Below, piece by piece: positions 26,385 through 49,470 of a stretch of DNA of 56,385 bases. Made by a program: the position numbers and the translations under genes. The stretch covers positions 1-56,385 of the forward strand of contig CALMKH010000023.1 in the NCBI GenBank assembly GCA_937867025.1, in the 5' to 3' direction. The stretch comes from an uncultured Bacteroidota bacterium (GTDB lineage: Bacteria > Bacteroidota > Bacteroidia > NS11-12g > UBA955). The notes beneath the pieces were generated by a model that saw only the letters and a program-made list of their open reading frames with translations, did not search any database and was not told where the DNA came from. Every line of letters starts with the position of its first letter. The stretch's first letter is position 1.

Positions 26385-27083
26385 ATGAAATTAGGCGTGG
26401 TAATTTTTCCCGGCAGCAACTGCGACAGGGACCTGATTGAAACCCTTTCGGACGTTTCCGGCCAGGAGGTTGTGGAATTATGGCATAAGGATACGGACCT
26501 GAAAGGGGTGGACATGGTGTTTATACCCGGAGGGTTTACATATGGTGATTACCTGAGGACAGGCGCTATTGCCAAACTGAGTCCCATTATGCAGAGTGTC
26601 ATAGCGCACGCTGAAAAGGGTGGTTTTGTCATGGGCATCTGCAATGGCTTCCAGATACTTTGCGAGAGCGGCCTGTTACCCGGAGCATTGCTGAGGAATA
26701 CCAACATGAAATTCGAGTGCCGCAACATATTTCTCAAACCGGTCAATACCAACCTGATAATCACTGCCAAGCTGGATAAGAATAAGGCGTATAAAGTGCC
26801 TATTGCGCATGGCGAAGGCCGTTATTATGCAGACGCCGATACCCTGAAAAAACTTGAGGACAACCAGCAGGTGGTTTTCAGGTATTGTTCTGAAAGCGGT
26901 GAAATTGACGAGGCTTCCAATCCGAACGGCTCACTGAATAATATCGCGGGCATTTGCAATGAGGGAAGAAACGTATTCGGCATGATGCCGCACCCTGAAA
27001 GATGTTCATCCAGCCTCCTGGGTAATACGGATGGCAGGCTGATCTTCGAAAGTATCATCGAACGGGCCGGCGTGTTAAGCTAG
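26385..27083 (+). CDS. purQ: Phosphoribosylformylglycinamidine synthase subunit PurQ
   Basis: A 232-residue class I glutamine amidotransferase that supplies ammonia for the fourth step of purine synthesis (FGAR to FGAM) together with PurL and PurS. It shows the family start KLGVVIFPGSNCDRD, the nucleophile Cys86 in GICNGFQIL, and the His/Glu of the triad in MMPHPERCSS near the C-terminus. The length is typical. The ATG at 26385 is chosen over 26292 because of the promoter position and family N-termini. purL and purS are not in the window, so the small-subunit system is encoded at more than one locus. Confidence 0.95.
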   Translation: MKLGVVIFPGSNCDRDLIETLSDVSGQEVVELWHKDTDLKGVDMVFIPGGFTYGDYLRTGAIAKLSPIMQSVIAHAEKGGFVMGICNGFQILCESGLLPGALLRNTNMKFECRNIFLKPVNTNLIITAKLDKNKAYKVPIAHGEGRYYADADTLKKLEDNQQVVFRYCSESGEIDEASNPNGSLNNIAGICNEGRNVFGMMPHPERCSSSLLGNTDGRLIFESIIERAGVLS

Positions 27084-27220
27084 GCATCGTTTTTTAAAAT
27101 CCTTTTTAAATCACAAATCACTTCAGGGATTTATTTCCCTGCAGACAGGCTCATCCGGGTTATTGTGCATTCCATTCACTTCCGGATTAACATGGGCTAC
27201 ACACGTAATTCAGAAACAAA

Positions 27221-27250
27221 AAAAAATGCCGTCCGGAGACGGCATTTTTT
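27221..27250. terminator. Bidirectional intrinsic terminator between purQ and the giant operon
   Basis: The arms AAAAAATGCCGTC and GACGGCATTTTTT enclose a CGGA loop. The stem is perfect, G/C-rich near the loop, and gives a T6 tract on both strands. It lies between the convergent purQ gene and the 3' end of the M4/SprB gene (27269) and can terminate both. Confidence 0.85.
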
Positions 27251-27268
27251 CATCAAATATTATATCCT

Positions 27269-30200
27269 TTATTTCACGAATATAAGTCTCCTGTTCTGTA
27301 CACCTCTCGAATTCCTGATCTTGATGATGTACGTTCCGTCGGCAAATGAATCATACAGGTCGAAGGAATGAATATCTTTTCCTACTACATTAAAGTTCAT
27401 GAACATTTTGCCGGTCATGTCAAATACTTCTATGGTGATTGGTTCGTCCAGGCCAAGTGCAGATAAGTTGGTGATCACCACATTTCCTGCGCTAGGATTA
27501 GGCTGCACTGCAATTGAAGCAGGTTCCGGAGCGTCGATGACAAGCACTGTGTCGATCTTCGAACATCCTTTGGCGTCGGTGACAGTCACTATGAACATTC
27601 CGGTTCCCAGGTTGACAGCGGTATCTGTGGCCTGGCTCCTTGAATCATCCCACTTGATGGTGTACGGCGCTGTTCCGCCTTGTATTTCCACCCAAGCATA
27701 GCCATTGGTTGCTGACTTGGTGGCGGATGTGCCATAAGCCTGCAGCAACAGTTCGGGTGGTTCGGGAACAACAGCAGTATCCCTGAATACGCAACTGTTG
27801 ACGTCTGTCACGGTCACATGATAGGAACCCTGTACGAGTCCGCTGATGTTCTGCGAGGAGGCCCCGTTGCTCCAGTTAAACGTGTAACCAGGAGTTCCGC
27901 CGGATGGCAGCAGGCTTATTGCGCCTGTGTTATCGCCGTAACAATCCACGTCGTCCACTGTCATTGCAGCGGTAAGCGGTGCGGCTGGCTCTGTAAGGGT
28001 AATGCTGTCCTTCAGGATACAGTTGTTGGAGTCTGTGACGGTGAGTACGTATTTGCCCTGCGGCACATTGGTGAGATCTTTGGTCAGCGCGCCGTTCGAC
28101 CAGTTGAATACATATGGTAAGGTACCGCCGCTGATATTGGCTGTCACCGAACCGTCATTTCCGCCGAAACAGTTGATATTATCATTAACGAGGGCGGACG
28201 CCAGCGGAGCTGAAGGCTGACGGACTGTAACAGTGTCTTTCAGTATGCAATTGTTGGCATCTGTCACGGTCACCATATAATCGCCTTTTATCAATGTATT
28301 GATATCTTCTGTTGAAGCCGCATTCGACCACGCAAAGGTGTACGGAGATGTTCCTCCTGATACAGTCAGGTCAGCGCTTCCGTCATTGCCTCCGAAACAT
28401 TTTACATCCAGTATAGTGACAGTGTTGCTCAGCGGAGCAAGTGGCTGGGTCAGGACAGAAGTATCCAGCAGGAAGCAGTTGTTCTTGTCTGTTATGCGGA
28501 TGGAGTAGGTGCCTTCCTTGACATTGTTCAGGTCTTCGGTTGTGGCGCTGTTGTTCCAGGCGAAACTGTACGGTATGGTACCGCCTGTAACGGTCAGGTC
28601 AATCTGTCCGTCGGAACCGTCGTAACAGTTGATATGATCCAGTGCCTTGCTGAGGGCAAGCGGTGCGGTAGGTTCTTTAATGGTGAGTGTATCCCTGCGC
28701 ACGCAGCTGTTGCCGTCGGTGATAACGACGCTGTAGACGCCCTTAATCTTTCCTGAGATGGCTGATGTGTTCTCGCCGCTCGACCACTGATACGTATAAG
28801 GCAGTGTGCCGCCGGTACCCAGGGCAGTGATGCTTCCGTCATTGCCTCCGAAGCACAGCACGTCATTTACCGTAATGTTTGATAGCAGCAGGGTTGGTTC
28901 GTTAATGACAACGGTATCCCTGTCGGTACATGCATTGGCATCTGTTACGCGCACAATATAGGTGCCTTTCACAAGGTTGGTGATATCCTGTGTGGTGGCG
29001 CTGTTGCTCCACTGATAGGTGTAAGGTGTGACGCCGCCTGTGACGCTCAGGTCAATACTTCCTGTATTGCCTGCAAAACATTTCACATCCTGGAATGTGT
29101 GTGTGGCTACGAGCAGGGCAGGTTCTGTAATGTTGACCGTGTCGTTGGCCACGCAACCGTTATTGTCGGCTACTACGACCGTGTATTTTCCGGCAACAAG
29201 TCCATTGAGGTCCTGGGTGCCGCCGCCATTGCTCCACATGTAGATATATGGAGTGGTGCCTCCTGTTACTGTCAGGTCGATGCTTCCATCATTACCGTTC
29301 TTGCATTTCACATTCTGGAATGTATGGGTAGCGATAAGCAGCGCAGGTTCTGTGATCACAACCGTATCCCTGCGTATGCAGCCGTTGGCATCAGTGATCC
29401 TCACTGTATAAGTGCCTGCAACAAGTGAGCTTATGTCCTGCGTAACGGCGCTGTTGTTCCAAAGATATGCGTAAGGGCTTACTCCTCCGGTAACAGTCAG
29501 GTCGATGCTGCCGGTATTGCCATTTTTACACCTGACATTCTGGAAGGTCTTGCTTGAAACCAGGAGTGCCGGTTCGGTGATGATCACTGTGTCGCGGACA
29601 ATACAACTGTTGCCGTCTGTCACCCTTACAGTGTATGTGCCGGCTGTGAGCGAACTCAGATCCTGGGTGGTGGCCGATGTATTCCAGAGATAGGTATACG
29701 GCGTGGTTCCACCACTGACGCTCAGGTCAATGCTTCCGTTATTGCCATTCTTGCACAGGACATGCTGGAATGTTTTAGTGGAGACAAGAAGGGTAGGTTC
29801 GGTGATGATCACCGTGTCGCGGGCTATGCAGCCGTTGAAATCGGTCACCCTCACAGTGTATGTGCCGGCAGTAAGGGAAGCCAGATCCTGGGTGGTGGCA
29901 CTGTTACTCCACAGGTAGTTGTATGGTGTTGTTCCGCCGCTTACGGACAGATCGATGCTTCCTGTGTTGCCGTTTTTACACCTGACATTCTGGAACGATT
30001 TGCTTGTGACCAGTAATGCAGGTTCGGTAATAATAATGGTATCTTTCTTCGTGCAGGCATTGGCATCGGTTATCGTTACAATGTAGGTGCCTGCTGTCAG
30101 TCCGCTGATATCCTGCGTGGTAGCGCTGTTGCTCCACAGGTAGGTATACGGTGTTGTTCCGCCGGTTACAGTCATATCAATGCTGCCTGTGTTGCCGTTT

Positions 30201-33200
30201 TTGCACCCTACATTCTGTACGGTCCTGGTTGTAGCAAGTTTGGCAGGCTGTGTGATGACTGTGGTATCGCGCAGAACGCAACTGTTCGCGTCGGTAATCC
30301 TTACAATGTAAGTGCCGGCTGTGAGAGACGACAAATCCTGGGTGGTAGTGCTGTTGCTCCACAGGTAGCTGTAAGGCGATACCCCGCCGCTGACGGTCAG
30401 GTCGATGCTGGCATTGTTTCCGCCGTTACAGGTGACATGCACAGGTGTCTTGCCGGCAACCAGCAAGGTTGGCTCTGTGATCGTTGCGGTGTCGCGCGCT
30501 ATGCAGCCGTTGGCGTCTGTGACCAGAACCGTGTAGGTGCCTGCGGCAATATTGCTGAGGTCCTGGGTTGTGGCGCTATTGCTCCAGAGATATGTATAAG
30601 GAGTGGTACCTCCGCTCACACTCAGGTCGATGCTGCCTGTGCTGTTTCCTTTACAAGCCACATTGCTGGGGGACTTGGAAGTGATCAGCAATGCTGGTTC
30701 GGTGATAACAACTGTATCGCGTCTTACGCATGCGTTTGCATCTGTTATCACAACCGTATAGGTTCCTGCGGAGAGTCCGGAAAGGTCTTCTGTAGTTGCG
30801 CTGTTGCTCCAGAGGTAACTGTATGGAGTAGTGCCCCCGGTGACTGTCAGGTTGATCGACGCGTCGCTGCCACCTTTACATTTTACGTTCTGTGTGGTTT
30901 TGGTGCTTACGAGCAGGGCAGGTTCGGTCACAATGCTGGTATCCCTGAGGATGCAACCGTTGAAGTCAGTGATCCTCACACTATAAGTGCCTGCAACAAG
31001 TGAAGAAATATCTTCAGTGGTTGCACTGTTGCTCCAGAGGTATGAGTAAGGGCTTACGCCTCCGTTCACTGTCAGGTTAATGCTTCCGTTGCTTTCATTC
31101 TTGCATTTGACATTGGCAATGGTCTTGCCGGCGGCAAGCAATGCAGGTTCAGTGATGACAACCGTATCGCGTGCGATGCAACCGTTGTTATCGGTTATTC
31201 TCACAGTATATGTGCCGGCAGTCAGCGCGCTGATATCCTGGGTGGTAGCGCTGTTGCTCCATAAGTAGCTGTATGGCGATGTGCCTCCGCTGACACTGAG
31301 GTCGATGCTGGCATTGTTGCCGTTTTTGCACAACACGTTGACACTGCTTTTGCTGCTGACAAGCAGGGCAGGTTCGGTGATCACTGTTGTGTCTCTTAAT
31401 GCACATCCGTTGGCATCCGTGATCAGCACGCTGTAGGTGCCTGCGGACAGGGACGACAGATCCTGGGTGGAGGCGCTGTTGCTCCATACATATGTATACG
31501 CTGTAGTTCCGCCGCTTACCGTCAGATCAATGCTTCCGTCGTTTCCGCTCTTGCATTTCACATGCAGGAGATTTTTTGTAACGGTTAGCAGGGCAGGTTC
31601 AGTAATGATCACTGTATCTCTGCGGATACAGTTGTTTGCATCTGTTATCACAACGGTATAGGTTCCTGCGGCAAGACTACTTACATCCTGGGTTGTTGCG
31701 CTATTGCTCCATACGTATGTGTATGGGGGCACGCCTCCGCTGACGGTCAGGTCGATACTGCCGTCGCTGCCATTTTTACATTTCACGTTGACACTTGTCT
31801 TGCTGCTGGTAAGCAGGGCAGGTTCAGTAATAAGGGTTGTGTCCCGGGCGATACAGCTTCTGTTATCGGTAACAGTGAGCATGTAAGTTCCGGCGGTAAG
31901 GGTCGAAATGTCCTCGGTAGAGGCGCTGTTGCTCCATAGGTATGAATATGGAGCGGTACCTCCGCTGACACCGATATTGATACTGCCATCATTTCCGTTC
32001 TTGCATTTCACATGATCGAAAGTTTTGCTGATAACAATCTTGCCGGGTTCTGTAATGACAGATGTATCTCTCACAAAACAACCTCTTTTGTCTGTTATCA
32101 ATATATGATAAGTGCCTGCGGACAATCCGGAAAGGCTTTGTGTAGTATCTGATGTATTCCAAAGGAAGGTGTAAGGACTCTTGCCCCCGGATGTTGAAAG
32201 GGTAATTGAACCATTGGTGTTACCGAAACAGGCGATATTCGATACGGTTTTTGAAGCGATGGTAGGTCGTATAGCCTTTGTCACAGTGACCTCATCAGAT
32301 GCTGTACAGTTGAAACTGTTGGTTACCGTTACACTATAAGCACCTTCCGTATTCACCCCTATGGTTTGTGACGTGCTGTTGTTGTTCCACAGGTAGGAGG
32401 CATATCCCGAGCCGGCATCAAGTACCAGGTTAATGCTGGAACCTTCGCAATAGAAGGTATCATTGCCGAGATTAACTGCCGGGATGGGTCTTACAATGAA
32501 TAACCTGGTGCTGTCGAGCACGCTGCCGGTGGTTGGTGAAACAGCCCTGATGCGGACATTGGCAGATCCTGAAGTAATGTTAGGTACCTTCCACCTGAAA
32601 ATCGTATCTGCTCCGCTTAAACCGGTCTGAAGGGTTACATACGCCTGATTGCCAACGGAGTATTGAAGGTTAAAGGTTGTTATAGGCACTTTTTTCCAGG
32701 TGAGGTCGAGGGTATCGTTCACGCAGATGCTGAGTCCGCTGTCCAGCGCATTCAGGAAGTTCTTTGGTGAAATGGTGATCACAAGATCAGGATTGGTCTT
32801 TGCCGCTTCCTTGTTCTCAACATTGTCTGATGCAACCGTATAGAATTTGTAAAGACTTCCGCTGTTGCCCCTGAATATAACGAAGGTATCGGTGATGTTC
32901 TTTGCATAGGAGATATATGGGCCGTTATTTTCTGATACCAGGAGTTCCACTCCTCCGACGCCGCTTCCCCCATTGTCATCCTGAGCTTCAAAGGTGATAG
33001 GGAATTGCAGGGAGTCGATAATCGGCGGCATTGAATCGATACTGCTCACGGGAGCTTTTGCATCGATGATATTATGTATCCTCGGGGTAAAGATGGAAGG
33101 GTTGTTGTCAAATACAATCTCTGCTTTCGCCCTCAGGCTGTCACCTGTTACAGTATTTGTTTTTGCCTTGATGGTGAAATCGACGAAACCTTCTCCGTTG

Positions 33201-35776
33201 TGTTTGGAAGTATCATTGACCGGAAGGAAGCCCCGTGTTCCTGATGTCGGTGGTAAACCTGTTGCAGGATCAATGGACTCAAATATCCAGAACGCCTTTT
33301 TGGATGATACGTCTATACCGGCCGTTACATCTACGTAAATGCCGAGTGAATCCCTCAGATCCAGTCGTTGCTGGTAAGTTGACACGTTGTTTGGCACGCT
33401 GAAAGTCCAGTTGTTGAAACCGAAGCTGGAAACCCTGAAGGTATTCATGTCCATATTGTTGTCGATCGGCAGGTCAACTGATACCCTGCTGGCTGGAGCA
33501 GTTGCGAATTTGGGATCGTTTTCAAAGCGTACCTTATAGGTTTGAGTTGCAAATTTTGAAACGAATTTCTTGTCCCCATAGCTGGGTGGCCCGATGATAT
33601 CGTTCGGGTCATAGGAGCAGAGTATCGGGATGAAGAAGACAAAAGCGCTTTTTTGTCCTTTGCATCCGTTCTTGTCGGTTATGGTAGCTGTTTTGGTACC
33701 CGATGATCCTATGGAACCTTGTGAAGCTACCAGCAACCGCCCGTTCGGCCAGCTGTAAGTATACGGTGGCGTGCCGCCTGAGCCGCTCACGTCAAGATAG
33801 ATTTCCGGACGGCGATCGCAAGGTCTTACATAGATACCTCCTCCGCTTATGCTACCGTCTACTTTCTCCGGTGCCTTTACCTCAGTTTCATCAACCACTT
33901 CGCATTTTGCGACAGTGTCTTTCACCCAGGCTACATATTTTCCGGTATCAAGACCTGTCAGGTCTTTGCTGGTGGATAAAACTGCATTGGTTGTATCTCC
34001 TTTATACCATTTGTATTCAAACGGTCCGTTCGATTTCTTGACAGTCAGCTTGATCTCACCGTCTTTGGAATCAATACATTTGGCATCTTTCACATCAAAT
34101 TCCAGTTCGATGGAATCAGGGCAGCACTTATCGCCTACATTCACAGCGAACCAGGCGTTGCAAACCTGTTTGTATTCTTCCGAAGTTTTGCCGTACAGGT
34201 CTTCGGCTGCCAGCAGGGTAGCTTTTCTGGCACCCTTGTAGTCCGAGGTGGCGATCAGGTAGCGTCTGAGGGCCTTGAAAGCGATCTTTTCAGCCTTGGC
34301 CCTGCCAATACCTGTTACATCATAATTGTCGTTGGCATCATTTGTTCCACTTCCGCCAATGGTGAGCAGGTAATACCAGTAAGCGGCCACCTGCGAGTTG
34401 AAATGGACGCCTCCGAAATCGTAAGCAGCTGTAGTGCTGCGCCAGTTTCCTCCTTTATAGGTATCTGGCAATGACCAGGGGCATGAACAATTCTTGGGGT
34501 CGGACATCAGTCGTTCCTGTGAAAAGCCATTTCCTGATTTTTGCAGGTCTTCGAACAGTGCCCAGTTACCGCTGTTTCCTTTTGCGTAAAACTCGATATT
34601 GGCGCCGAAAATATCAGCCCAGCCTTCATTTAATGCACCGCTTTCGCCCTGGTAAATAAGGCCTGCTGTTCTTGAGATGATGGCATGTGTAAATTCGTGT
34701 CCGCATATATCCAGGGAAACCCAGGCATTGGTCTTGTTGTCCCCGTCGCCGAACTTCATGGCCTTGTCCCCATTGGCCCAGAAGGCATTGGCGACATTAT
34801 TGCCGTAATGCACCCAGTTGGTGATGGTGGAACCTGCATTGTCGTAGGAGTTCCATGAGTGCGTGTTCTTGTAGTAGTCATACACCTTTACAATGCCATA
34901 GTGAACGTCCACAGCAGCCTTTTGCCTTACGCTATCCCACACGTTGTTCGGATCGTTGAAATTGACAGGTGCGCTGGTTCTTCCATTGCAGTCAAGTGTT
35001 TTGATCTTATTGATGGAATCGTAAAGAACATACCGGTTGGGAAGGGTTGTAGTATTGATATTGACATTCCCTGAATACAGGCTCGCCCCTGTTCCGTTAG
35101 CCGGGTGAAGGTTGTTGATCATATTAACCACTTGTCCTTTTTCAACATCTACGAATACCTCATATTCTGCAGGCTCGGTTGTAATAACCGTAATAATGCA
35201 GGTCAGTACCCATTTTCCTGTGAAGATATTTCCGGCAGGCGCATAGCAAAAACGGAACGTCGGTTTCAGCTCATCGGGAGATTTACCCTGATTCCTGTAG
35301 AAATTGATCTCAAAGGAGTCAAGCCACCTGTAAGGTTTGTCGCCCAGGTGTTGCAGGGCCAGGTCAATGTAAGGCTGGGGATCGTTTACCGGAATCGGCT
35401 TGAAATCCACATCTCTCGGTGTCCCTATAATAGCCGTTATGACGTTGTCCTTGCTGCGCTTCACAATCAGGTCGCTGCCGTACAAGATCCTTCCATTGAA
35501 ATACTGGTCGTATTTGGCGAAAGTAAATCCGTCTTCGGAAAAAGTTTCCCTTATATTATATACAGGAACAGCATCCAGATGATATACGCTTTTCATGATT
35601 TCGAATAAGCGGATATCATTCACTTTGTTCCATTCCCTGGATGGTTTAACAAAGAATATGTCACCATTTGAATTGTATTCCACATCTTCATAACGATATT
35701 CCTGTCCGAACATGAACTGGCATGAAAGCATCATGAAGGTCGCTAAAATATATCTTGTTATAGTCATTGTTTTCAT
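27269..35776 (-). CDS. Giant secreted M4 metallopeptidase with SprB repeats and T9SS sorting domain
   Basis: A 2835-residue surface protein. Order: signal peptide (to about 25); FTP/PepSY-type propeptide (to about 220); M4 thermolysin-like domain with zinc ligands in HEFTH (His360, His364) and Glu384 in GALNEGWAD, exactly 20 residues after His364 as in thermolysin; a first SprB-like unit (about 545-640); a CSYDPNDIIGP-type beta domain (about 720-920); Ig-like domains (about 930-1170); then about 20 SprB repeats of 74-76 residues plus one degenerate copy; finally a type A sorting domain (PNPSAGNVVITNLSALG ... ADGTYIIKIRNS). The peptidase should be active on the cell surface. It follows the 4379-residue gene by seven bases, in one operon. 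SprB repeats occur in gliding adhesins; combining them with an M4 peptidase is unusual. Confidence 0.9.
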   Translation of the reverse strand: MKTMTITRYILATFMMLSCQFMFGQEYRYEDVEYNSNGDIFFVKPSREWNKVNDIRLFEIMKSVYHLDAVPVYNIRETFSEDGFTFAKYDQYFNGRILYGSDLIVKRSKDNVITAIIGTPRDVDFKPIPVNDPQPYIDLALQHLGDKPYRWLDSFEINFYRNQGKSPDELKPTFRFCYAPAGNIFTGKWVLTCIITVITTEPAEYEVFVDVEKGQVVNMINNLHPANGTGASLYSGNVNINTTTLPNRYVLYDSINKIKTLDCNGRTSAPVNFNDPNNVWDSVRQKAAVDVHYGIVKVYDYYKNTHSWNSYDNAGSTITNWVHYGNNVANAFWANGDKAMKFGDGDNKTNAWVSLDICGHEFTHAIISRTAGLIYQGESGALNEGWADIFGANIEFYAKGNSGNWALFEDLQKSGNGFSQERLMSDPKNCSCPWSLPDTYKGGNWRSTTAAYDFGGVHFNSQVAAYWYYLLTIGGSGTNDANDNYDVTGIGRAKAEKIAFKALRRYLIATSDYKGARKATLLAAEDLYGKTSEEYKQVCNAWFAVNVGDKCCPDSIELEFDVKDAKCIDSKDGEIKLTVKKSNGPFEYKWYKGDTTNAVLSTSKDLTGLDTGKYVAWVKDTVAKCEVVDETEVKAPEKVDGSISGGGIYVRPCDRRPEIYLDVSGSGGTPPYTYSWPNGRLLVASQGSIGSSGTKTATITDKNGCKGQKSAFVFFIPILCSYDPNDIIGPPSYGDKKFVSKFATQTYKVRFENDPKFATAPASRVSVDLPIDNNMDMNTFRVSSFGFNNWTFSVPNNVSTYQQRLDLRDSLGIYVDVTAGIDVSSKKAFWIFESIDPATGLPPTSGTRGFLPVNDTSKHNGEGFVDFTIKAKTNTVTGDSLRAKAEIVFDNNPSIFTPRIHNIIDAKAPVSSIDSMPPIIDSLQFPITFEAQDDNGGSGVGGVELLVSENNGPYISYAKNITDTFVIFRGNSGSLYKFYTVASDNVENKEAAKTNPDLVITISPKNFLNALDSGLSICVNDTLDLTWKKVPITTFNLQYSVGNQAYVTLQTGLSGADTIFRWKVPNITSGSANVRIRAVSPTTGSVLDSTRLFIVRPIPAVNLGNDTFYCEGSSINLVLDAGSGYASYLWNNNSTSQTIGVNTEGAYSVTVTNSFNCTASDEVTVTKAIRPTIASKTVSNIACFGNTNGSITLSTSGGKSPYTFLWNTSDTTQSLSGLSAGTYHILITDKRGCFVRDTSVITEPGKIVISKTFDHVKCKNGNDGSINIGVSGGTAPYSYLWSNSASTEDISTLTAGTYMLTVTDNRSCIARDTTLITEPALLTSSKTSVNVKCKNGSDGSIDLTVSGGVPPYTYVWSNSATTQDVSSLAAGTYTVVITDANNCIRRDTVIITEPALLTVTKNLLHVKCKSGNDGSIDLTVSGGTTAYTYVWSNSASTQDLSSLSAGTYSVLITDANGCALRDTTVITEPALLVSSKSSVNVLCKNGNNASIDLSVSGGTSPYSYLWSNSATTQDISALTAGTYTVRITDNNGCIARDTVVITEPALLAAGKTIANVKCKNESNGSINLTVNGGVSPYSYLWSNSATTEDISSLVAGTYSVRITDFNGCILRDTSIVTEPALLVSTKTTQNVKCKGGSDASINLTVTGGTTPYSYLWSNSATTEDLSGLSAGTYTVVITDANACVRRDTVVITEPALLITSKSPSNVACKGNSTGSIDLSVSGGTTPYTYLWSNSATTQDLSNIAAGTYTVLVTDANGCIARDTATITEPTLLVAGKTPVHVTCNGGNNASIDLTVSGGVSPYSYLWSNSTTTQDLSSLTAGTYIVRITDANSCVLRDTTVITQPAKLATTRTVQNVGCKNGNTGSIDMTVTGGTTPYTYLWSNSATTQDISGLTAGTYIVTITDANACTKKDTIIITEPALLVTSKSFQNVRCKNGNTGSIDLSVSGGTTPYNYLWSNSATTQDLASLTAGTYTVRVTDFNGCIARDTVIITEPTLLVSTKTFQHVLCKNGNNGSIDLSVSGGTTPYTYLWNTSATTQDLSSLTAGTYTVRVTDGNSCIVRDTVIITEPALLVSSKTFQNVRCKNGNTGSIDLTVTGGVSPYAYLWNNSAVTQDISSLVAGTYTVRITDANGCIRRDTVVITEPALLIATHTFQNVKCKNGNDGSIDLTVTGGTTPYIYMWSNGGGTQDLNGLVAGKYTVVVADNNGCVANDTVNITEPALLVATHTFQDVKCFAGNTGSIDLSVTGGVTPYTYQWSNSATTQDITNLVKGTYIVRVTDANACTDRDTVVINEPTLLLSNITVNDVLCFGGNDGSITALGTGGTLPYTYQWSSGENTSAISGKIKGVYSVVITDGNSCVRRDTLTIKEPTAPLALSKALDHINCYDGSDGQIDLTVTGGTIPYSFAWNNSATTEDLNNVKEGTYSIRITDKNNCFLLDTSVLTQPLAPLSNTVTILDVKCFGGNDGSADLTVSGGTSPYTFAWSNAASTEDINTLIKGDYMVTVTDANNCILKDTVTVRQPSAPLASALVNDNINCFGGNDGSVTANISGGTLPYVFNWSNGALTKDLTNVPQGKYVLTVTDSNNCILKDSITLTEPAAPLTAAMTVDDVDCYGDNTGAISLLPSGGTPGYTFNWSNGASSQNISGLVQGSYHVTVTDVNSCVFRDTAVVPEPPELLLQAYGTSATKSATNGYAWVEIQGGTAPYTIKWDDSRSQATDTAVNLGTGMFIVTVTDAKGCSKIDTVLVIDAPEPASIAVQPNPSAGNVVITNLSALGLDEPITIEVFDMTGKMFMNFNVVGKDIHSFDLYDSFADGTYIIKIRNSRGVQNRRLIFVK
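27521..32252 (-). repeat. SprB repeat array (about 21 units of ~225 bp) inside the M4 peptidase gene
   Basis: Twenty clear units and one degenerate terminal unit. Each has the pattern C-K/F-x-G-N-x-G-S-I, GGTxPYxYxWSN, AGTYTVxITDxNxC, RDTVxITEP. Units 2-15 share linkers of the type ITEPALL, while units 16-20 share xPxAPL, indicating two repeat families and stepwise duplication. Units 10-13 are the most alike (NVRCKNGNTGSIDL). DNA identity between units is high enough to risk assembly collapse or copy-number change. Confidence 0.9.
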
Positions 35777-35783
35777 AATCGTC

Positions 35784-41700: not shown

Positions 41701-44700
41701 GGAGATGTTGGCCATGCTCTCAGGGTGTAATTAACGCCGCCGGTGAACGAGAAAGAGCCGATGCTGACAGTATCCGAGCCGCCGGATTTGATAGCCCCGC
41801 TCCAGCTGTAATTAGTTTGTGAAACACCATTCATGGTCCATTTTATCGTTGCGTTCTTGAGTGTATCTGAACCGAAGTTGTTCAGGATGACACGAACAGT
41901 GCGGGATCCGCTTGCAAACGGAGCATTGGGCCCTCCATAAGCCGATATACCGGCATCATTCGGGGATGGAATTTCAAATTCATCGGCTCCGATATCAGGG
42001 GTCAGGCTATCGCGTTTGTTGCCATCAAAATCTTTTTTCACGTCGGAAAGTGACTTTCCGGCTTTGTTCAGGTCAACAGCCCTAACGTGCAGATCAGTGC
42101 CCGACACAAAGAACGGATCGACTGAGATAGAATTGCCGTCTTTTGAGTTGGCCGATTTCAGCGCCGCGAGATCGCTGCGGTCGCCACCCCAGTACGCCAG
42201 GTATGAACCATTCGTGCGGTAACAGTTGTGGTTGGATTCGACAATTGTACCGGTAGAACTGGTGTAAAGCGCATAGCCGCTGCCGGTATGATCGAAGATG
42301 TTGTTGACGGATCGTATGTTATTGCTTGATGAATGCTGTATGGCATATGAAGAGGTGTACGTTGAAGCGACGCGGACGTTGTTGTTGTAAAAATTGATGT
42401 ACGAGCCGCTGTAATTATATATTCCATAAGCGTCATACTGTCCCAGAAGGCTTATCATGTTGTTTGAAACAATCGAAGGCCTGGAAGAATAGCTGTTGCA
42501 TGAATAGAGGTACAATCCCATATATCCTGATGGAAGTATGATGTTGTTGCCTGAAATGTTCATGGTTCCCCGTGCAACCTCCAGGCGCACGCCAAAGCCG
42601 TACTGGTACGTGCCCATAGTGATTTTGTTCGATGTAACGGCCGGAGTGTCTGTATAGTTCAGGAAAATGGCATTGTAATAAGGCGTTTCAAACGTATTGT
42701 TATGTACCTTTATATTCTTGTCGTATACTCCGTTGTTATAACCATAGGCGTAGATTCCGTAGGCACCGTTTTTAAACACGTTGGATGTGAAATGGTTGTT
42801 GTCATTGTTCCTGCTGTTAGTAATGGTAGAATAAACAATGGCGTGGTTGGCTCCGGATCCTGTGGATGAAACGCCCTCAAGGATATTGTTTTCCAATGAG
42901 GTCAATGTTGCCCCGTTCTCGAGATAGAATACAGTGGCGTAGGTTGAATTGACAGCACTGACGGTCATCTTGCGGAATGTGATGCCCCTGGCGCCGTTCA
43001 GTCTCACTGTATAATTATTGGAAGATCCTGCGGAGTTGGTCAGAGTAACAAGCGTGCTGTCGAGGTTTTCAGACTGGAACACGATGTCATTTCTCTCAGC
43101 CGCACCGGTTATGGCAGGAATATCCAGCTGTTCGTTGTAAGTACCGTTCCTTACATTAAACAATACGCTTCCTATGATGCCTCCGCGTTTCATGGCATCA
43201 ACCGCATCGGTAAAGGTATTGAAGTCAGGACTTGCCCCGCCGATGGTGTATGTTCCGCTCAAGGCAGGATACTGATTGACTGCTGATGCCGTGTCATTGT
43301 AATTCACGGTGTCATTGTAACTGTTGGGTAGCGAAGTCCAGGCTTTAAGGCTGTAAGCGCTGTCCGGATCAAAATTTTTTGTTCCCAGTATAACATGGAC
43401 TGTATCATTGGAGGCCAGTGAGCCGCTCCAGCTATAGCTGGTTTGCGCAGTCCCGTTGAACACCCAGCCGATGTTGACACTGCTGATGGAATTCATTCCG
43501 AAGTTTTTCAGCACCACTTTTACGAATTGTGTATCGGGCAGGAAAGGGGTCTTAGGGGTTATGATATCGGAAATACCTGCATCCAGCGCGGGAGGGTCAA
43601 ATTCATCCGCACCTATGTCAGGTGTTGAATCGCGCAGGTCACCTTCAAAGTCGGTGGTAAGACCTGTGTACCGGTCCGCTTTCGCATTGAGCCCGATTTC
43701 CCGGATGTGCAGATTGGTTGTTCCGGTAAACAACGGGTTGATCGAAAGTGAATTGGCATCTGTTCCGGATGCTGACCTGAATGAAGCAAGGTCCGTATAA
43801 TATATATTGTTCCTTCTTGCCAGGTTGGAACCTGATGACCTGAAGTTGTTCTTATCCGATTTCTGAATGGCTGAAGAGTTATAAATATTGATCGCCACGC
43901 CGGCTCCTGTATTTTCTATAATATTATTCAGCACATTCTGCGAACTTCCCGATTCAAGGTACATGCCTATTGAACTGGAATTTGTGGAAGTGCCAAGGCG
44001 TATGGTGTTGTTGATAAAATGGCCCCTGTTGACATTGTACATATAGAAACCGTAAACGTCACCGGATCCGCCCAGGTTCACCATGTTGTTTGCGACAAGT
44101 ATGGTATCGCCATTCCCATAACCTGAATAGATATAAATTCCGTATCTTCCGTAATCAGGACGTTTGATATTGTTCCTGGTGATCCGCACTTTATTATAGA
44201 GTTGCTCGCCCCTTATGGCCATAAAGTCGGAATATGTGGAGGTCGAGGAAATGGTGTTGAAGTCGACTACCGGTCCGTCCTGATAGATCAGCGCTACCGG
44301 ATTATAGAACTGGTTCAGGAATGTATTGTTTGTGATCCTCGTGCCGGACTCCCTGTAATTGGGCGGGCCGTAGCCATACCAGTACACGCCGTAACTTCCG
44401 CCCTCAAACACGTTCCTGTCAAATTCATTATATTGTTCGGTCGTGTTGCTGTTGAAAGAGCCTACCAGCGCCATGCTTGAGCTGGTAGTATTGCTTGTGC
44501 TGTTTTTAATGCGGTTGTTGTTCAGCTTATTGTAGCTGGCGTTTTCTTCAAACCGGAACACCACGCCGTTGCTTGAATTGAGCGACATGATGGTGAGGTT
44601 CCTGAATGTTATATTGGAGGCTCCTTCAAAGAACACCACATAATTCGTGTCGGAGAACGTGGAGTTGTATTGAAGGGTGACGCTTGTACTGTCGAGGTTG

Positions 44701-47700
44701 GAGCTTTCGAATATAACGCTTCCGGGCTGGTTGGCGCCATCGATCGGTGTCAGTACCAGTTGTTCCGTATATGTTCCCGACCTGACCCTGAACCGCACCC
44801 CGCCAGAGATGCCAGCTTCTTTCATCGCTTGGATGGCGGCCTTGAAAGTTGTGAAATCAGGCGTTGTGCCACCAATGGTATACACACCGCTCATGGCGGT
44901 TTTTTTATTCTTTATCCTGAAGGTGTCGTTGGATTTTTTCTGATCGGTAAGGTTGTTCGGCTGTGACGTCCAGGCAGTGAGATTGTTGACGCTGTCTCTT
45001 TTGAAGATGTAATTGCCGATGATCACCTGGGCGGTATCGCCTGAACCAAGGGTGTCATTCAGGGTGACGATCGCAAAGGTATCACTGTTGATCTTGCAAT
45101 GCACGCGTACAGATGTCAGGGTGTCAAGTCCGCGGTTTGTAACAATTACCTTGATCTGGACAGTGTCCGGTATAATGGCTCCGGCAGGGCTTATAAACCC
45201 GGTAACACCGGCATCCCTGGTAACAGGCACAAATTCGTCAGCGCCTATATCCGGCGTAGCGGAACGTGTTTCGCCGTCAATATCCCTGGTGACGAAATGA
45301 AGTTTTTTAGCTCTTGCGTTGAGGTTCACCTGCTCTACGTGCAGATCACTGTTGGATATAAAGCCCGGATCTACGGACCGTGAGTTGCTGTCAATGCCGT
45401 CAGCCAGCATGGAAGCCAGGTCGGAATATGAATTCGAGTTGATCTCTGTGAGGGTTGATCCGGTGCTGTAATAGTTGTTGTGGTCGTGAACAGTCTGGTA
45501 AGGTGACTGGATTCTCGCAGCCAGACCGCCTTTTGAGTTCACAAAAATATTGTTAAGTATTTTTGAATAATAAGGGTATACCAGCCTGGCGCCTATAGCC
45601 CCCGAACGCGTTCCATGCTGATGAACATTGTTGTTGGTGATATAGGCATTTTCTGTACTGTATATATAAAGGGCGTATTCTGCATTATCTCCGCCCACAT
45701 TTATAAAGTTATTGAAAATATAGCTGGAGTCAGTTGAATTGTTAGCCTCCAGATACTGAATATAAACCCCTGCATATTCTGATTTATCAGGGCCGGATAT
45801 GCGGTTCCCCGATATCCTGTTAGTGCCATACAGCTGGTAGATATAGAGACCATAGTGCCCGCTATATGCAGAGTTTGACCTTATGATGTTGTCCCTGAAT
45901 GTAAAGTTGGTTGACCTGTCTACATATAAGCCTGCATAATAGGCATCTTCCAACAGGTTGCCTGTTAACGACAGGTTGGTGTTTCCATAGGTATACATGG
46001 CCACGGATCCGTTCTTGAAACGGTTTCCGGCAAAGCTTATATTCAGGCCAGACTGGTCATTATATACCAGGCAATTGTAATAGTCATTGGTATTGGTCGT
46101 CGAGGCCGACTCCAGGACACAATGGAAGAAATCGACGTTCGATGTCCCGTTGTCAAGGGTCACAGCGCGTGTGGCCGTGCTGCTGCTTGTGCTCTTGATG
46201 GTCATATGCCTGAACGTCACCCACTGGGCAGCATCAAGATAGACAACCTCATAAGCCGAATAGCTGGTTCCAAAGCTCAGGGTGACCAGCGAGCTGTCTT
46301 TGTTCTGCGATTCAAATACGATGGCATTTTTTCTTGTGGCGCCCTGTATGGCCGGAATGGCGATGCGTTCGTTATACGTGCCATTCCTTACCTTGAACAG
46401 TACGGAATCGATAATGCCGCCGTCTGTCATGGCGGAAACGGCTGCTGTAAAGGTGCTGAAGTCAGGTGTTGTTCCACCAATAGTATACACACCGCTCAGG
46501 GCAGGTTTGCCTGATCGAGTGGCGGTGTCATTGAAATTCATGGTATCGGTAACGCTGTTCGGACTGCTGGTCCACACCTTGACATTATAGTTTGTATTGG
46601 TGAGGAACCTGTGCATGCCGATGCACAGCTCGGCAGTATCCCCTGAAAGCAGGTTGCCCGACCAGTTATAGGTAGTTTTGGCAGTGCCATTGATACTCCA
46701 TCTCACCTGTACCGAATTCAGGGTGTCCTCGCCGTGGTTCTTGAGTATGACGCGCACGCAGACACTGTCGGCCTTATACGGGAATATGCCTGCAATACCT
46801 GCATCCGCCGGCACAAGACTAAATTCGTCTGCTCCGATATCCGGATTGGTGCTGCTCCTGTTCTCGCCATCAATATCTTTAGTGATCCGGGCATCAGGTG
46901 TCGCGTTGCGGTTCATGTCCGATGAATAGGCATGCAGGTTGAGAGTGGTTTTGTAATTAGGATTTCCGAATGTGGAGGCGGAATCAAGGCTTGTAGAACT
47001 CTTCCAGCCGGCAAGTCCGCTAATGGTCGTGTTATAGTAAAAGGTGGGTGCGGTTGGTGAATAGAAGTTGTTGCGATCGGATGCTTCAATATTTTTAGTG
47101 CCGGAATACGATACGTACATAATGTTGCCCGTGCCATTTTGGGATACCGAATTGTTGCGTACCCTGATATTGCTGCCGTTGTAAATGTACAGGTTGCTGT
47201 AACCGCTGTAAAACGTGTTGCTGTACGTGCTGTTGTTATAAAAGTCTATATAATAGGAATAATACGAGTTCCATGCATAGGCATCTACATACGCAGCCTT
47301 TCCGGCGACAAGGAAGTTATTGGCTATGAGATTCCTGAAACTGCCGGTCCTGTTGACATTGTCCGTATAAATGGCTCCGCTGGCTCCATTGGGTTGCAGT
47401 ATCCTGTTGCCCATAACGGTAATGTTCCTGTTGTTATAGAAATAAATACCGTATCCGCTTGTATAAGCAGTATTTTCCCTTGACAAAAGATTGCCGCTGA
47501 TCTGTACCTTGCTAAAATAATAACAGAAAATATTCGAATAATACTGGTCGATAAAATTGCTTCCGGTGATGCTGAGGTCAGACACGGTGTTGGATGTGGT
47601 CCAGTAGAATCCCGTACTTCCTGATTTAAATTCACATTTGTCTATCTGTATTTTCCTGCTCGTGTTTCCTGTCAGCGAATTGGCCATGAACAGGGCATGG

Positions 47701-48923
47701 TTGGTTGATGTGGTGGAAACGGTAGAGCCTGATATGCGGCAGTTCATGAATGAAAGGTTCAGGAAAGTGCCGCCGATATCCACAACCCGTCCGTATGTTG
47801 AGCCAAGGGCTTCAAGTGTCAGCTGTGCAAACTTGACATGTGCCGCATTTTTGAGTTGAACCGTATAGTTAGTGCCCGATGCAAAGGACGCGTAATATAT
47901 GGTAACGTCCGAGCTGTCACCTGTGGAAGACCTGAAAGTCACGGTTTTAACCGAATCCGTTCCCGGGATAGGGCCAATGATCAATTGTTCGTTGTATGAG
48001 CCGGGCCGGATATTGATCACTACAGGTCCGCAAACACCATTCGCCTGCAGGTCATTGATGGCTGCCTGCACCGATCCGTAATCCGGATTGCTGCCCCCGA
48101 CCGTGAGCGTGTCTCCAAGGCTGGGTTTGATATATGCTATCAGGGTATCGTTCCTGGTCGCGGTGTCTGTCGCACCGTTCGGCAGGGAGGTCCAGACTTT
48201 AAGTGTATCGCGCCTTCCTGCGACAAGCGTTTTGGAGCCTAGTGTTATCCTGGCTTTGTTTGAACCCGAGCCACCTATTGTATCCAGAACGGAATTATGC
48301 CTGTATGTGGTTTGAGTAACCCCGTTGTATGTCCAGTTCACCTTGACAGAGTCGATGCGGTTCCTGCCGGTGTTGCCAATGGTGACGACAATGTTGCGGG
48401 CACCCGGACACACCCTGTAGGGCGAATCAATGGAATACATGGCAGCATCGTTGGTGGCAGTGCTTGAATATGTGCGTATGACAACAATCCTGTCAGCGCA
48501 GAGCTGTATGCCTGAGAATGTCAGGAAATTGGTGTCATTGTACTGGTAAGATCCCAGCAGGTTAAAATCTGCGGAAATCGTATCCACGGTACAGCTGTTG
48601 CATTGACACGAATATGCAGGACTGATCACACCAAGGGTGTCCCCGTTCATCATGGCATAAAAATTACCCGACCCGCAGGAGGTATGGTAAATCTTTACGA
48701 CGATTTTTGTCAGCCGTCCCGGCGAACCGTTGCCGATAAGCAAATGCTGCTTTGAGGTAAAGCAATCGTAATTGCTGCCACAAATGAGACAGCCGCTGCT
48801 GCCGTTTGTGTTGTAGTCATACACGGTGGTGTCGCGCAACTGGGCATTAGCCGGGGTTGAGGCGCAGAAAAGTAAAAAGACGAGAAATAGGGGGGTAATG
48901 AAGCTTTGTAGTTTTAGTCTCAT
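35784..48923 (-). CDS. Giant secreted protein: five beta-helix modules plus eight CARDB repeats, no sorting domain seen
   Basis: A 4379-residue exported protein. A signal peptide (about 1-27, ending ANAQ) precedes a Cys-rich domain with about nine cysteines (CLIC, CQCNSC). Five modules of about 540 residues follow, each an Ig/CARDB-like domain (DAGI, WxxNG, VWTSxPN) plus a right-handed parallel beta-helix opening with YTIGGxxPDFxTF and closing with PDIGADEF. Next come an Ig-like segment, eight CARDB repeats (PDLxVxxVxxP, WxDxxYxSxD, about 123 residues each), a pre-peptidase-C-like domain and a final beta region ending GFTIILPNN. No type A or type B sorting domain is visible, although its operon partner has one. 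The role is probably adhesion or glycan binding; beta-helices may bind or cleave polysaccharide, but no catalytic set is evident. Confidence 0.85.
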   Translation of the reverse strand: MRLKLQSFITPLFLVFLLFCASTPANAQLRDTTVYDYNTNGSSGCLICGSNYDCFTSKQHLLIGNGSPGRLTKIVVKIYHTSCGSGNFYAMMNGDTLGVISPAYSCQCNSCTVDTISADFNLLGSYQYNDTNFLTFSGIQLCADRIVVIRTYSSTATNDAAMYSIDSPYRVCPGARNIVVTIGNTGRNRIDSVKVNWTYNGVTQTTYRHNSVLDTIGGSGSNKARITLGSKTLVAGRRDTLKVWTSLPNGATDTATRNDTLIAYIKPSLGDTLTVGGSNPDYGSVQAAINDLQANGVCGPVVINIRPGSYNEQLIIGPIPGTDSVKTVTFRSSTGDSSDVTIYYASFASGTNYTVQLKNAAHVKFAQLTLEALGSTYGRVVDIGGTFLNLSFMNCRISGSTVSTTSTNHALFMANSLTGNTSRKIQIDKCEFKSGSTGFYWTTSNTVSDLSITGSNFIDQYYSNIFCYYFSKVQISGNLLSRENTAYTSGYGIYFYNNRNITVMGNRILQPNGASGAIYTDNVNRTGSFRNLIANNFLVAGKAAYVDAYAWNSYYSYYIDFYNNSTYSNTFYSGYSNLYIYNGSNIRVRNNSVSQNGTGNIMYVSYSGTKNIEASDRNNFYSPTAPTFYYNTTISGLAGWKSSTSLDSASTFGNPNYKTTLNLHAYSSDMNRNATPDARITKDIDGENRSSTNPDIGADEFSLVPADAGIAGIFPYKADSVCVRVILKNHGEDTLNSVQVRWSINGTAKTTYNWSGNLLSGDTAELCIGMHRFLTNTNYNVKVWTSSPNSVTDTMNFNDTATRSGKPALSGVYTIGGTTPDFSTFTAAVSAMTDGGIIDSVLFKVRNGTYNERIAIPAIQGATRKNAIVFESQNKDSSLVTLSFGTSYSAYEVVYLDAAQWVTFRHMTIKSTSSSTATRAVTLDNGTSNVDFFHCVLESASTTNTNDYYNCLVYNDQSGLNISFAGNRFKNGSVAMYTYGNTNLSLTGNLLEDAYYAGLYVDRSTNFTFRDNIIRSNSAYSGHYGLYIYQLYGTNRISGNRISGPDKSEYAGVYIQYLEANNSTDSSYIFNNFINVGGDNAEYALYIYSTENAYITNNNVHQHGTRSGAIGARLVYPYYSKILNNIFVNSKGGLAARIQSPYQTVHDHNNYYSTGSTLTEINSNSYSDLASMLADGIDSNSRSVDPGFISNSDLHVEQVNLNARAKKLHFVTRDIDGETRSATPDIGADEFVPVTRDAGVTGFISPAGAIIPDTVQIKVIVTNRGLDTLTSVRVHCKINSDTFAIVTLNDTLGSGDTAQVIIGNYIFKRDSVNNLTAWTSQPNNLTDQKKSNDTFRIKNKKTAMSGVYTIGGTTPDFTTFKAAIQAMKEAGISGGVRFRVRSGTYTEQLVLTPIDGANQPGSVIFESSNLDSTSVTLQYNSTFSDTNYVVFFEGASNITFRNLTIMSLNSSNGVVFRFEENASYNKLNNNRIKNSTSNTTSSSMALVGSFNSNTTEQYNEFDRNVFEGGSYGVYWYGYGPPNYRESGTRITNNTFLNQFYNPVALIYQDGPVVDFNTISSTSTYSDFMAIRGEQLYNKVRITRNNIKRPDYGRYGIYIYSGYGNGDTILVANNMVNLGGSGDVYGFYMYNVNRGHFINNTIRLGTSTNSSSIGMYLESGSSQNVLNNIIENTGAGVAINIYNSSAIQKSDKNNFRSSGSNLARRNNIYYTDLASFRSASGTDANSLSINPLFTGTTNLHIREIGLNAKADRYTGLTTDFEGDLRDSTPDIGADEFDPPALDAGISDIITPKTPFLPDTQFVKVVLKNFGMNSISSVNIGWVFNGTAQTSYSWSGSLASNDTVHVILGTKNFDPDSAYSLKAWTSLPNSYNDTVNYNDTASAVNQYPALSGTYTIGGASPDFNTFTDAVDAMKRGGIIGSVLFNVRNGTYNEQLDIPAITGAAERNDIVFQSENLDSTLVTLTNSAGSSNNYTVRLNGARGITFRKMTVSAVNSTYATVFYLENGATLTSLENNILEGVSSTGSGANHAIVYSTITNSRNNDNNHFTSNVFKNGAYGIYAYGYNNGVYDKNIKVHNNTFETPYYNAIFLNYTDTPAVTSNKITMGTYQYGFGVRLEVARGTMNISGNNIILPSGYMGLYLYSCNSYSSRPSIVSNNMISLLGQYDAYGIYNYSGSYINFYNNNVRVASTYTSSYAIQHSSSNNIRSVNNIFDHTGSGYALYTSSTGTIVESNHNCYRTNGSYLAYWGGDRSDLAALKSANSKDGNSISVDPFFVSGTDLHVRAVDLNKAGKSLSDVKKDFDGNKRDSLTPDIGADEFEIPSPNDAGISAYGGPNAPFASGSRTVRVILNNFGSDTLKNATIKWTMNGVSQTNYSWSGAIKSGGSDTVSIGSFSFTGGVNYTLRAWPTSPNGVTDTLNYNDTLTKSNIYSGLDGIYTIGGSLPDFNTFNDARNALMLGGVLDTVIFKVRNGTYNEQVQILQYPGSSVSRPVTFTSESGDSSKVTLQYSAPNYNNNYIFSLKGADNITISKMTMSATNSYYSTVVSIDNGAANNRILNNRILMSLSYYNGVGVLSGSDRDDNTKILNNVISGGYYGIQVYGGGSSSTLQETGMVIENNTINSFRYSGIYMQYMNAPAIRRNIITPLTNTGDQLIYMNDVSNDVVISYNKLSSSYPYTTGIYINNHQGTSSKKGMIFNNFISLADPYYHGINLISSNYTSIFFNSINLYGTASSSTSACIRFQSANNTDLRNNILSNKAGTYAIHANNVPTLSNYNDLYTSGTNIGFVGSNNYTTLSAWKSGVSRDANSVSVNPNFITDTDLHTTLISLDSAATPISGITDDIDKNTRNATRPDIGADEFNSLPNNLSILAVTNPVNGCEIDSQLLNVTVFNYGSNTQKNFPVRYRVNNGSVISQTFTDSILPGFSKTFTFTGKVNTKPVGDYNFIVWTDASAEQYRLNDTLKVKVTNYQVPDSVGIMIPSDSSKNLDFPFSLSWSPVNGATLYDIYIWPDSVNTRPPTAAYSGLTQISKQITTGLGYGQTYKWQIIARNPSCSTPGPVQRFTVRHLPDVLATTVNSPLTAFSGNSISVSWVTKNRGAGSTGSGYWYDLVYLSKDNILDGSDILLTGVINLTSLSASQSYTQSANVTLPNGISGIHHIIVRTDGYGYILESDEGNNNKSDSLGINVSLTPPPDLQVTSIIKPSQAFSGQTINVRYTVKNSGTGNTRGSSWYDHVYLHSDSVVGGTHVRSLQHTGALDPDSSYTVQTTVPLPNNISGGYYIIVRTDPYNAIYEHANENNNDRISDSLKVILTPPPDLIVRNIVIEDSVSNKEVVNLTYDLINQGGSATTNSWYDQAYVSKTTPFNANNSIYIGGWWRYNIGSDDTITCSQSVTIPDNITGSYFVYVFADAGNLQFEGVNDTNNISRKTTRVLNPDLIIYNVNVPASDTSGKLIQVNWKVRNDGLGKQIFSGRNDKIYISRHNKFHPDSVILLETVHYNAALNPGDSLLRTKFARIPDGTKGSRYVYVVADADNNIYENGKDTNNTRRSSVMTVHLAPYPDLRVLTVNRPDTSEAGKKASITYTVQNKGNRSAIPVWKDRVYMSKDSIYNPSKVTLLKTNNIASTLLVDSTYSITQDVDIPTALSAGNYYFYVFTDASDVRYEYLFENNNIKRSSKIFIKGYPPVDLTVTSITAPDSVFSGNNLSITWKVKNVGLAKTIANTWVDRTYLSSDSILDGSDRFVGETSIFTPLDKDSTYTRNLVYTTPNGISGTYYLLVKTDARNDNNDDDTSNNTRVARNGSGIAKTIKVILSLSSDLQITAWNVPSTATAGQPAQFIWKVENKGDTTTRAGSWTDRVYLSTDYTIDNSDINLGNGTRAGNLLKKASYTDTVSLFIPDITGAYIVLIKTDDGNREYEHNAENNNVQASVMTISQAPPGDLVVSSVTAPSSAIAGGYVNVSYQIRNRGSNPINGTRTDNIYISEDTIFDGTDVLFASRQDQSSLVPNATRNLSAGGYINGIKTGTHYFIVFTDVRDNINESRDTNNTGYGNAIDINVPVLPLNVLTNDTLHDDKNLYYRLIVPDSLKGESILITIKGDSVNGHNELYARLNEVPTRSNFDHAFSTPFYGNQEILIPAADTGIYYIMAYGNTSTANFQKVTLLARKLNFEIRKVTPVSVGNNGQVTLKIEGAKFTENTVFRIAIDSAFAGNPSTVDSSGVLYIEMNALDPSAQGGDAGLIVADPTVAYATFKLVQVPTGLYNVIAEKEEQTAMLRRGLKVVTTEPASVVIDVQRPSNSRTNVLNAFQINYRNTGNVDLVNSFLEIISNGGAPISLTQPGLTQKAINLKVILENDSGPAGVLRAGSEGSVMIYSISSTALGFTIILPNN
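36785..39741 (-). repeat. Eight tandem CARDB repeats in the 4379-residue protein
   Basis: Eight units of about 370 bp (123 residues) sharing PDL at the start, a central VKNxG motif, WxDxxYxS, and a final YxxxVxTDxxNxxxE-N-N turn. CARDB domains are Ig-like adhesion modules that often carry surface proteins. Units are diverged and alignable by motif, so they are older than the SprB copies. Confidence 0.85.
40360..48420 (-). repeat. Five tandem ~1.6-kb CARDB/beta-helix modules
   Basis: The module ends (PDIGADEF) fall near residues 696, 1226, 1769, 2313 and 2850, a spacing of 530-545 residues. Each module starts with an Ig/CARDB-like domain, then IGGxxPDF and a beta-helix rich in short NxI/NxF rungs such as ISGNxI and IxNNTF. 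The regular spacing shows tandem duplication of a two-domain unit. Confidence 0.88.
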
Positions 48924-49468
48924 AAGCAGTGTAGTAAGGTTTTAAAAAGCGGTTAACAGGCGGTAAAAACCTATACAGCAATACGGTTTCAGGCTGATAG
49001 GAGAGGTCAAAAGTAGAGCATAATTTCGCAAAACCAAAATTATTTTAATGCTAAAAAATTACTAAAAAAGCAAATTTTTAAGTCACTAGAAATCAACCAT
49101 TGGAGGGGTTTAGTGCGGAAAAAAAGACACTTTTCGCGTCGTTTTTTGCATGAAGCGGTATACTTAATTTTAAGTATTTTTACCCGGAAAAGAAGATGAA
49201 AAGTCAGAAAATTGTCACTTTTTGATTAAATTTTATCAGAAAAAGCTAGTAAAAAGTACTAAAATTTATTTCATGATATAATCCCTTGCAGATCAGTGTC
49301 CTGAATTGCTGAATGGTGAAAAATTCTTATCCTGTTAAAATACGCCGGATGCGTTATTGCAGAAATATGAATTGCATATCATTTTTGTATGCCGGCTGAG
49401 CAAAAAATGACAATACACAAATAATGAAGGAAGAACAGGGGCGAAACAGTTTGTTTGGCCCTGTTTTT
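48924..49468. other. Region between the giant operon start and ligD end
   Basis: About 545 A/T-rich bases. It contains the operon promoter (49008-49037), an 80-base leader before the giant gene, and a terminator near 49431-49470. No convincing open frame is present. Several A/T runs and short inverted repeats around 49100-49280 are not strong enough to call. Confidence 0.5.
49008..49037 (-). promoter_or_regulatory. Promoter (TTG-N19-TACTTTTG) of the giant two-gene operon
   Basis: On the minus strand TTG (49035-49037) and TACTTTTG (49008-49015) are separated by 19 bases, the best-matching Bacteroidota promoter in the window. Transcription should begin near 49003, giving a leader of about 80 bases and a transcript of about 21.8 kb to the terminator at 27221-27250. 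Confidence 0.65.
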
Positions 49469-49470
49469 TT
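49431..49470. terminator. Hairpin terminator at the 3' end of ligD
   Basis: The arms AACAGGG and CCCTGTT are separated by an 18-base loop, with T7 on the plus strand and a T-rich TTCTTCCTTC on the minus strand. It overlaps the ligD stop region and can separate ligD from the leftward giant operon. The large loop lowers confidence. Confidence 0.5.

Follow-up and report, generated by a model that had tools for sequence, protein, structure and literature searches.

Why do two giant secreted proteins lie side by side in a bacterial genome, and do they belong to one apparatus? The question is raised by a stretch of 56,385 nucleotides (nt) from an uncultured Bacteroidota bacterium (GenBank assembly GCA_937867025.1, contig CALMKH010000023.1, positions 1 to 56,385), referred to here as the window. 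Its minus strand, on which all features of the two genes are given below, carries gene A (35784..48923), encoding a giant fibre protein of 4379 amino acids (aa) with a signal peptide and no C-terminal sorting domain of the type IX secretion system (T9SS), and gene B (27269..35776), encoding a T9SS-sorted M4 peptidase of 2835 aa with an SprB stalk; 7 nt (35777..35783) separate the stop codon of A from the ATG of B. A sequence-only reading of the window had reported the two open reading frames (ORFs) with these positions, lengths and spacing, all of which were confirmed (20 shuffled versions of the window, of the same composition, gave no ORF longer than 202 aa), and had proposed a surface system in which one protein binds a target and the other cuts it, or in which the protease matures its large partner. 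We find that the pair represents a single payload variant of a broader architecture, which recurs across the phylum with other payloads.

Results

Linkage of ATERM and extDUF

The final ~390 residues of A form a conserved C-terminal region (35787..37016; the last CARDB plus all-beta domains) for which the name ATERM was coined in this analysis, and the most conserved part of B is an extended variant of DUF7619 (33023..33610; DPNDIIGP...), termed extDUF. Loci with a strong ATERM match were fetched and their downstream sequences were examined with a model of B's DUF7619 region; a few of the weakest ATERM matches were not fetched, and one duplicate locus (L098, identical to L087) was not counted. 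In 49 of the 49 loci with enough sequence, extDUF lies downstream of ATERM on the same strand at a distance of 0.6-5.7 kb, and four further ATERM loci run off contig ends before extDUF could be seen. Nineteen of the loci played no part in seeding the extDUF model or in deriving the linkage rule. At the level of whole genomes, a draw of 395 genomes contained ATERM in 17 and extDUF in 20, with 17 shared (Fisher p 4e-27, computed ignoring relatedness).

The two modules reside in one polypeptide in 31 of the 49 loci, for example in an Anaerolineae protein of at least 5527 aa and in locus L150 of the window's own genome, and in separate, closely spaced genes in the other 18. The single chains run in the order fibre, ATERM, payload, extDUF and immunoglobulin-like (Ig) region, in Bacteroidota often followed by a sorting domain. 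All 18 split loci break at the same domain boundary, with the stop codon of A no more than 14 residues past the end of ATERM (L179 has a two-part ATERM match, whose second part reaches to 2 residues before the stop), and the ten checked base by base show a spacing of ~1-40 nt or a short overlap. Where the genes are split, it is the extDUF chain that bears the sorting domain, and the A chain lacks one: of ten extDUF chains tested, nine scored above the cut-off of 27 bits and the tenth reached 26.7. An assembly artefact or a frameshift that broke up one gene was considered and rejected: B starts with a signal peptide of its own, and the boundary is the same in 18 loci from many genomes, among them that of the cultured strain Lunatibacter salilacus. 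The split loci form one clade in the ATERM tree (SH-aLRT 100), so there was a single split, or a single reverse fusion, after which the gene order persisted.

The window's genome itself holds two single-chain relatives with helical or unknown segments in the payload slot, G000:C150 (L150) and G000:C171 (L152); the ATERM match of L152 is weak and its locus runs off the contig.

Conservation of the A/B pair with an M4 payload

When 59 relatives were searched with the B protease region and the A C-terminus, the complete pair was found in three genomes of another family of the same order (G038, G040 and G044), in the same gene order and a few bases apart, with A of 5464-5475 aa (42-44% identical to that of the window) and B of 2125-2874 aa (47-49% identical). 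A search of named genomes added a fourth, Bacteroidetes bacterium UBA6063. The genes upstream and downstream of the window pair are not common to these relatives, so that it is the pair and not the region that is conserved, and regional synteny was rejected as the reason for the adjacency. Co-occurrence of homologues was one of the checks on which the sequence-only reading had staked its proposal, and the pair came through it in four further genomes with unrelated flanks.

Small conserved secreted proteins of ~365 and ~213 aa precede A in G038, G040 and G044 (L048-L053), and in two of these genomes a third of 185 aa does so as well. They are absent before A of the window and are possible accessory factors.

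Exchange of the payload between the constant modules

Judged by Pfam, the slot between ATERM and extDUF is occupied by an M4 peptidase in the window and four other genomes, by M23 in L173, L174 and L176, and by RHS in Lunatibacter, Anaerolineae and Chlorobium-like genomes and others, where some RHS calls rest on repeats read in the printed sequence rather than on Pfam and "Chlorobium-like" is our own label. The slot of G062 probably holds M23 too, the contig ending there and Pfam giving no match. RHS followed by an M10/RTX domain occurs in L139 and L151, a weakly supported M12-like zincin in L172, and thrombospondin type 3 repeats, glycine-rich or helical segments and unknown domains elsewhere. 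The payload label needs at least nine changes on the ATERM tree, which indicates that the slot has been exchanged at low frequency.

The M4 domains linked to A form a group separate from 31 stand-alone M4 domains (100/100, subject to a long-branch caveat). Between the same genome pairs the A-linked domains are 50-54% identical and the stand-alone ones 75-81%, so the A-linked protease diverges faster. Every M4 protein adjoining A carries extDUF, whereas 14 extended stand-alone M4 proteins of the order have no DUF7619.

Several loci deserve separate mention. In genome G320, other loci have full RHS in the slot, whereas L139 and L151 have a truncated RHS and after it an M10-type metallopeptidase with RTX repeats, an apparent payload switch. 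A secreted protein of 340-354 aa is encoded between A and the M23-payload gene in L173 (11897-12940), L174 and L097 (1306-2367), that of L173 with a weak match to DUF5711. In Lunatibacter salilacus a 73-aa ORF (L094, 15343-15561) overlaps the RHS gene at its stop codon, a position typical of immunity genes; neither this ORF nor the RHS tip has Pfam support. Assignment of the L091 payload to the clan CD peptidases, an impression from a CHGG...SCC pattern only, was abandoned, as there was no Pfam or PDB match.

Domain organization of A and B

The description of A as a non-enzymatic-looking beta-helix/CARDB protein agrees with its Pfam matches, which comprise eight CARDB stretches over the whole protein and a right-handed beta-helix. 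Repeated modules of a CARDB-like Ig domain and a right-handed beta-helix (40074..48404), each with a terminal DIGADEF motif (five exact copies in A, seven in relatives), are followed by tandem CARDB repeats (36789..39716, bounds approximate) and ATERM. No Pfam family covers ATERM as a whole, the only match being a weak one to CARDB, and its predicted structure (pLDDT 80) matches only Ig-like entries in the PDB, which are uninformative for fold identity. Pfam detected no Por_Secre_tail in A, which therefore does not qualify as a type A substrate of the T9SS, and no carbohydrate-binding or substrate-specific domain.

B had been described as a zinc peptidase on an SprB stalk with a T9SS tail, and Pfam bears this out with matches to FTP, both M4 domains, 21 SprB stretches over the whole protein, DUF7619 and Por_Secre_tail. 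A signal peptide and FTP-type propeptide (35096..35776; PF07504 at residues 80-119, 21.9 bits against a cut-off of 21) precede the payload, an M4 (thermolysin) catalytic domain (34136..35095, residues 228-547; Pfam E 2.8e-37 and 1.6e-38, thermolysin 5a3y match E 6e-55). Its zinc site is H360-E361-F-T-H364 ... E384 (34625..34699), and H458 corresponds to thermolysin His231; H360, E361, H364, E384 and H458 are invariant among four aligned B proteins, so that the M4 site is complete and the enzyme looks active. SprB-like repeats (33611..34135) connect the payload to extDUF, which is followed by an Ig-like region (32237..33019, bounds approximate), the SprB repeat array (27527..32236) and a T9SS type A sorting domain (27281..27502; E 3.8e-34 with Pfam Por_Secre_tail, 1.2e-44 with TIGR04183). 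The genome encodes the T9SS translocon (SprA, TIGR04189, 2446 bits, on C191) and has 149 matches to T9SS sorting domains.

The predicted structure of extDUF (pLDDT 92) is similar to pilin and MSCRAMM domains of Gram-positive bacteria, consistent with a structural role. DUF7619/CLIPPER isopeptide domains carry a Lys-Asp-Asn triad (PMC12617251). In extDUF, which has inserted extra strands relative to DUF7619, DPNxK reads DPNDI (Lys to Ile) and in the window the terminal VTN reads FTP (Asn to Pro), the Lys and Asn columns having been assigned by us. A covalent isopeptide link via extDUF was rejected, as the reactive Lys is missing, and no covalent link between A and B is proposed.

Expression signals and neighbouring genes

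The sequence-only reading had also given the pair one good promoter and one terminator. The terminator stands: a rho-independent hairpin with a 14-pair stem (27220..27251, minus strand) follows B and also sits 3' of the convergent gene 26292-27083 (plus strand), and a terminator search on the coding strand of the A/B junction found none. As for the promoter, a sigma-70 scan gave no good match, such a scan being uninformative in Bacteroidota. There is a match to the Bacteroidota-type pattern TTTG-N19-TACTTTTG 85 nt upstream of A (49008..49038, minus strand), a consensus match and not proof, which was sought after the fact and for which 1.4 chance matches are expected per window and ~0.01 in the 571-nt region upstream of A on one strand.

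The pair is flanked by a LigD-like gene and a GATase-type amidotransferase, the latter being the next gene downstream of B and convergent with it. Its G+C and third-position G+C resemble those of the adjoining genes. The LigD-type ATP-dependent ligase has a primase-polymerase domain (49469-51634, minus strand) and is preceded at 8 nt by the gene of a KGG stress-motif repeat protein (51643-52659, minus strand). Farther off, a GH15 trehalase-like gene overlaps a trehalose-6-phosphate synthase/phosphatase fusion gene (13749-17728, minus strand).

Discussion

A proposed split surface apparatus

The architecture, the constant linkage, the exchange of payloads, the single split clade and the intact active site, as read from the sequences, point to A and B being separate chains of a single modular surface apparatus, derived by the splitting of a giant gene, a fibre and a T9SS-anchored base with an exchangeable payload; we regard this as reasonably probable. 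The ancestral order would have been fibre (beta-helix/CARDB), ATERM, payload, extDUF, Ig and T9SS sorting domain, and the giant gene would have been split once just after ATERM, splitting being preferred here to fusion. A and B would each enter the periplasm by their own signal peptide, and B would cross the outer membrane through the T9SS and be anchored by its type A sorting domain. A may be carried out with B, or may dock on B outside, via ATERM and the extDUF/Ig base, and would then project as a very long adhesive stalk with the payload, here a thermolysin that looks active, at the joint. The proposed two-protein surface system is upheld in that the pair is real and conserved as a unit. 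It has to be amended on two points: A cannot be recognised as a T9SS substrate, and the protease is one payload among several.

Several points weigh against this reading. The weakest step is the export of A, which has no known outer-membrane route and could stay periplasmic. The contact between A and B is an indirect inference, and with the isopeptide Lys lost from extDUF a simple way of joining them covalently falls away. The correlation between ATERM and extDUF distances across the split loci (r 0.65, p 1e-4), which favours the reading, owes part of its strength to shared descent, and the 18 split loci share ancestry and do not represent 18 independent events. Most of the genomes are metagenome-assembled. 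Finally, the pair is patchy: 16 sampled congeners have no ATERM, so it is dispensable, lost or horizontally moved.

More tentatively, the loci may represent phylum-wide modular surface effectors in which the fibre, the payload and the T9SS-anchored base, once parts of one giant chain, are now secreted separately, the fibre being exported piggy-back on the base. If so, piggy-back export would be a new T9SS export mode and the apparatus a new effector-delivery platform; were B to carry A out, the T9SS would be accepting substrates made of several chains, of which no report was found in the searched literature. Two "hypothetical giant proteins" become a recognisable class with ATERM and extDUF as constant parts around a payload slot. 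The two modules can serve as search handles for listing payloads, several of which have no Pfam match, and the class lets one ask how a giant chain with no sorting domain reaches the surface.

Possible functions

That one protein binds a target and the other cuts it is plausible, and two uses fit: the cell may feed by adhering and digesting protein, or it may attack its neighbours by means of exchangeable effectors. As a nutritional unit, A would tether the cell to a particle, to prey or to a polymer, where the protease digests protein. A beta-helix/CARDB stalk with a secreted thermolysin follows ordinary adhesion-plus-hydrolase logic, and the ordinary nature of the enzyme leans to feeding; RHS in the same slot is left unexplained, however, and Pfam detected no domain in A that would select a carbohydrate or other substrate; we hold this use to be possible but somewhat unlikely.

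An interbacterial antagonism platform of the polymorphic-toxin type, with M4 as an anti-competitor effector, is rather unlikely. The RHS payloads in many loci, the exchange of payloads, the Lunatibacter ORF at the immunity-gene position and the fast divergence of the A-linked M4 do lean to antagonism. On the other hand, no immunity candidate adjoins the window pair, M4 is usually a degradative enzyme, in many fused relatives the slot is filled by nothing more than short segments, helical or rich in glycine, and Pfam supports neither the RHS tip nor the 73-aa ORF.

B might also be a maturation protease that trims or releases A after export, which would account for the coupling of the two genes and draws on their adjacency, likely coexpression and the complete M4 active site. 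A homologues with the same C-terminus precede RHS, M23-like or unknown payloads instead of M4, and in fused relatives ATERM and extDUF have stayed on the same chain. Since the same A module works unchanged with RHS, M23 or helical segments in the slot, maturation of the large partner by the protease is doubtful, and we hold it to be improbable. That two unrelated secreted proteins merely share an operon is very improbable, for although each is a complete ORF with its own signal peptide, the linkage of ATERM with extDUF is constant in 49 loci, 31 of them single-chain, and the flanks are unrelated.

Comparison with known systems

The split apparatus favoured here shares features with several known systems. 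An SprB-type gliding adhesin is defined by a type B (CHU_C) tail with sprC/D/F neighbours. B has SprB repeats and T9SS export in common with it and differs in its enzyme head and type A tail, and no sprC/D/F-type neighbours were recognised among the window ORFs scanned. With T9SS type A substrates (Por_Secre_tail/TIGR04183) the pair shares the signal peptide and sorting domain of B and the SprA of the genome, whereas the larger partner A lacks a sorting domain, so that the pair resembles one split substrate. No TpsB/FhaC transporter of two-partner secretion (type Vb) adjoins the pair, its neighbours being the LigD-like and amidotransferase genes. B resembles the secreted Bacteroidota M4 peptidases in its signal peptide, FTP propeptide and complete thermolysin active site; unlike the stand-alone M4 enzymes of the same order, which lack DUF7619, the A-linked M4 proteins form their own, faster diverging group. 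extDUF matches Pfam DUF7619 and differs from the isopeptide domains (PMC12617251) by the lost reactive Lys, the Asn to Pro change in the window and the extra strands.

RHS and polymorphic toxins, including the TANFOR class of Bacteroidetes, beside which SprB/C-terminal sorting domain proteins are found (PMC7073777), likewise combine constant delivery parts with an exchangeable payload, as seen here with M4, M23, RHS, RHS plus M10 and others. They differ in that the payload here lies between two constant modules and not at the C-terminal tip, that of the window being the N-terminal head of B, and in that an immunity gene is absent beside the window pair, a candidate being present only in Lunatibacter. 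The Pfam scan of A and B gave no TANFOR-type match, Pfam not having been checked for holding a TANFOR model.

The sequence-only reading knew of no description of the pair as a system, and we likewise found no paper on the pair, the ATERM/extDUF frame or its payload slot in a body of open-access literature that leaves out many journals and most preprints. In its parts the apparatus belongs to known families, in kind it stands with modular secreted effectors and T9SS surface proteins, and its mode of export is possibly new.
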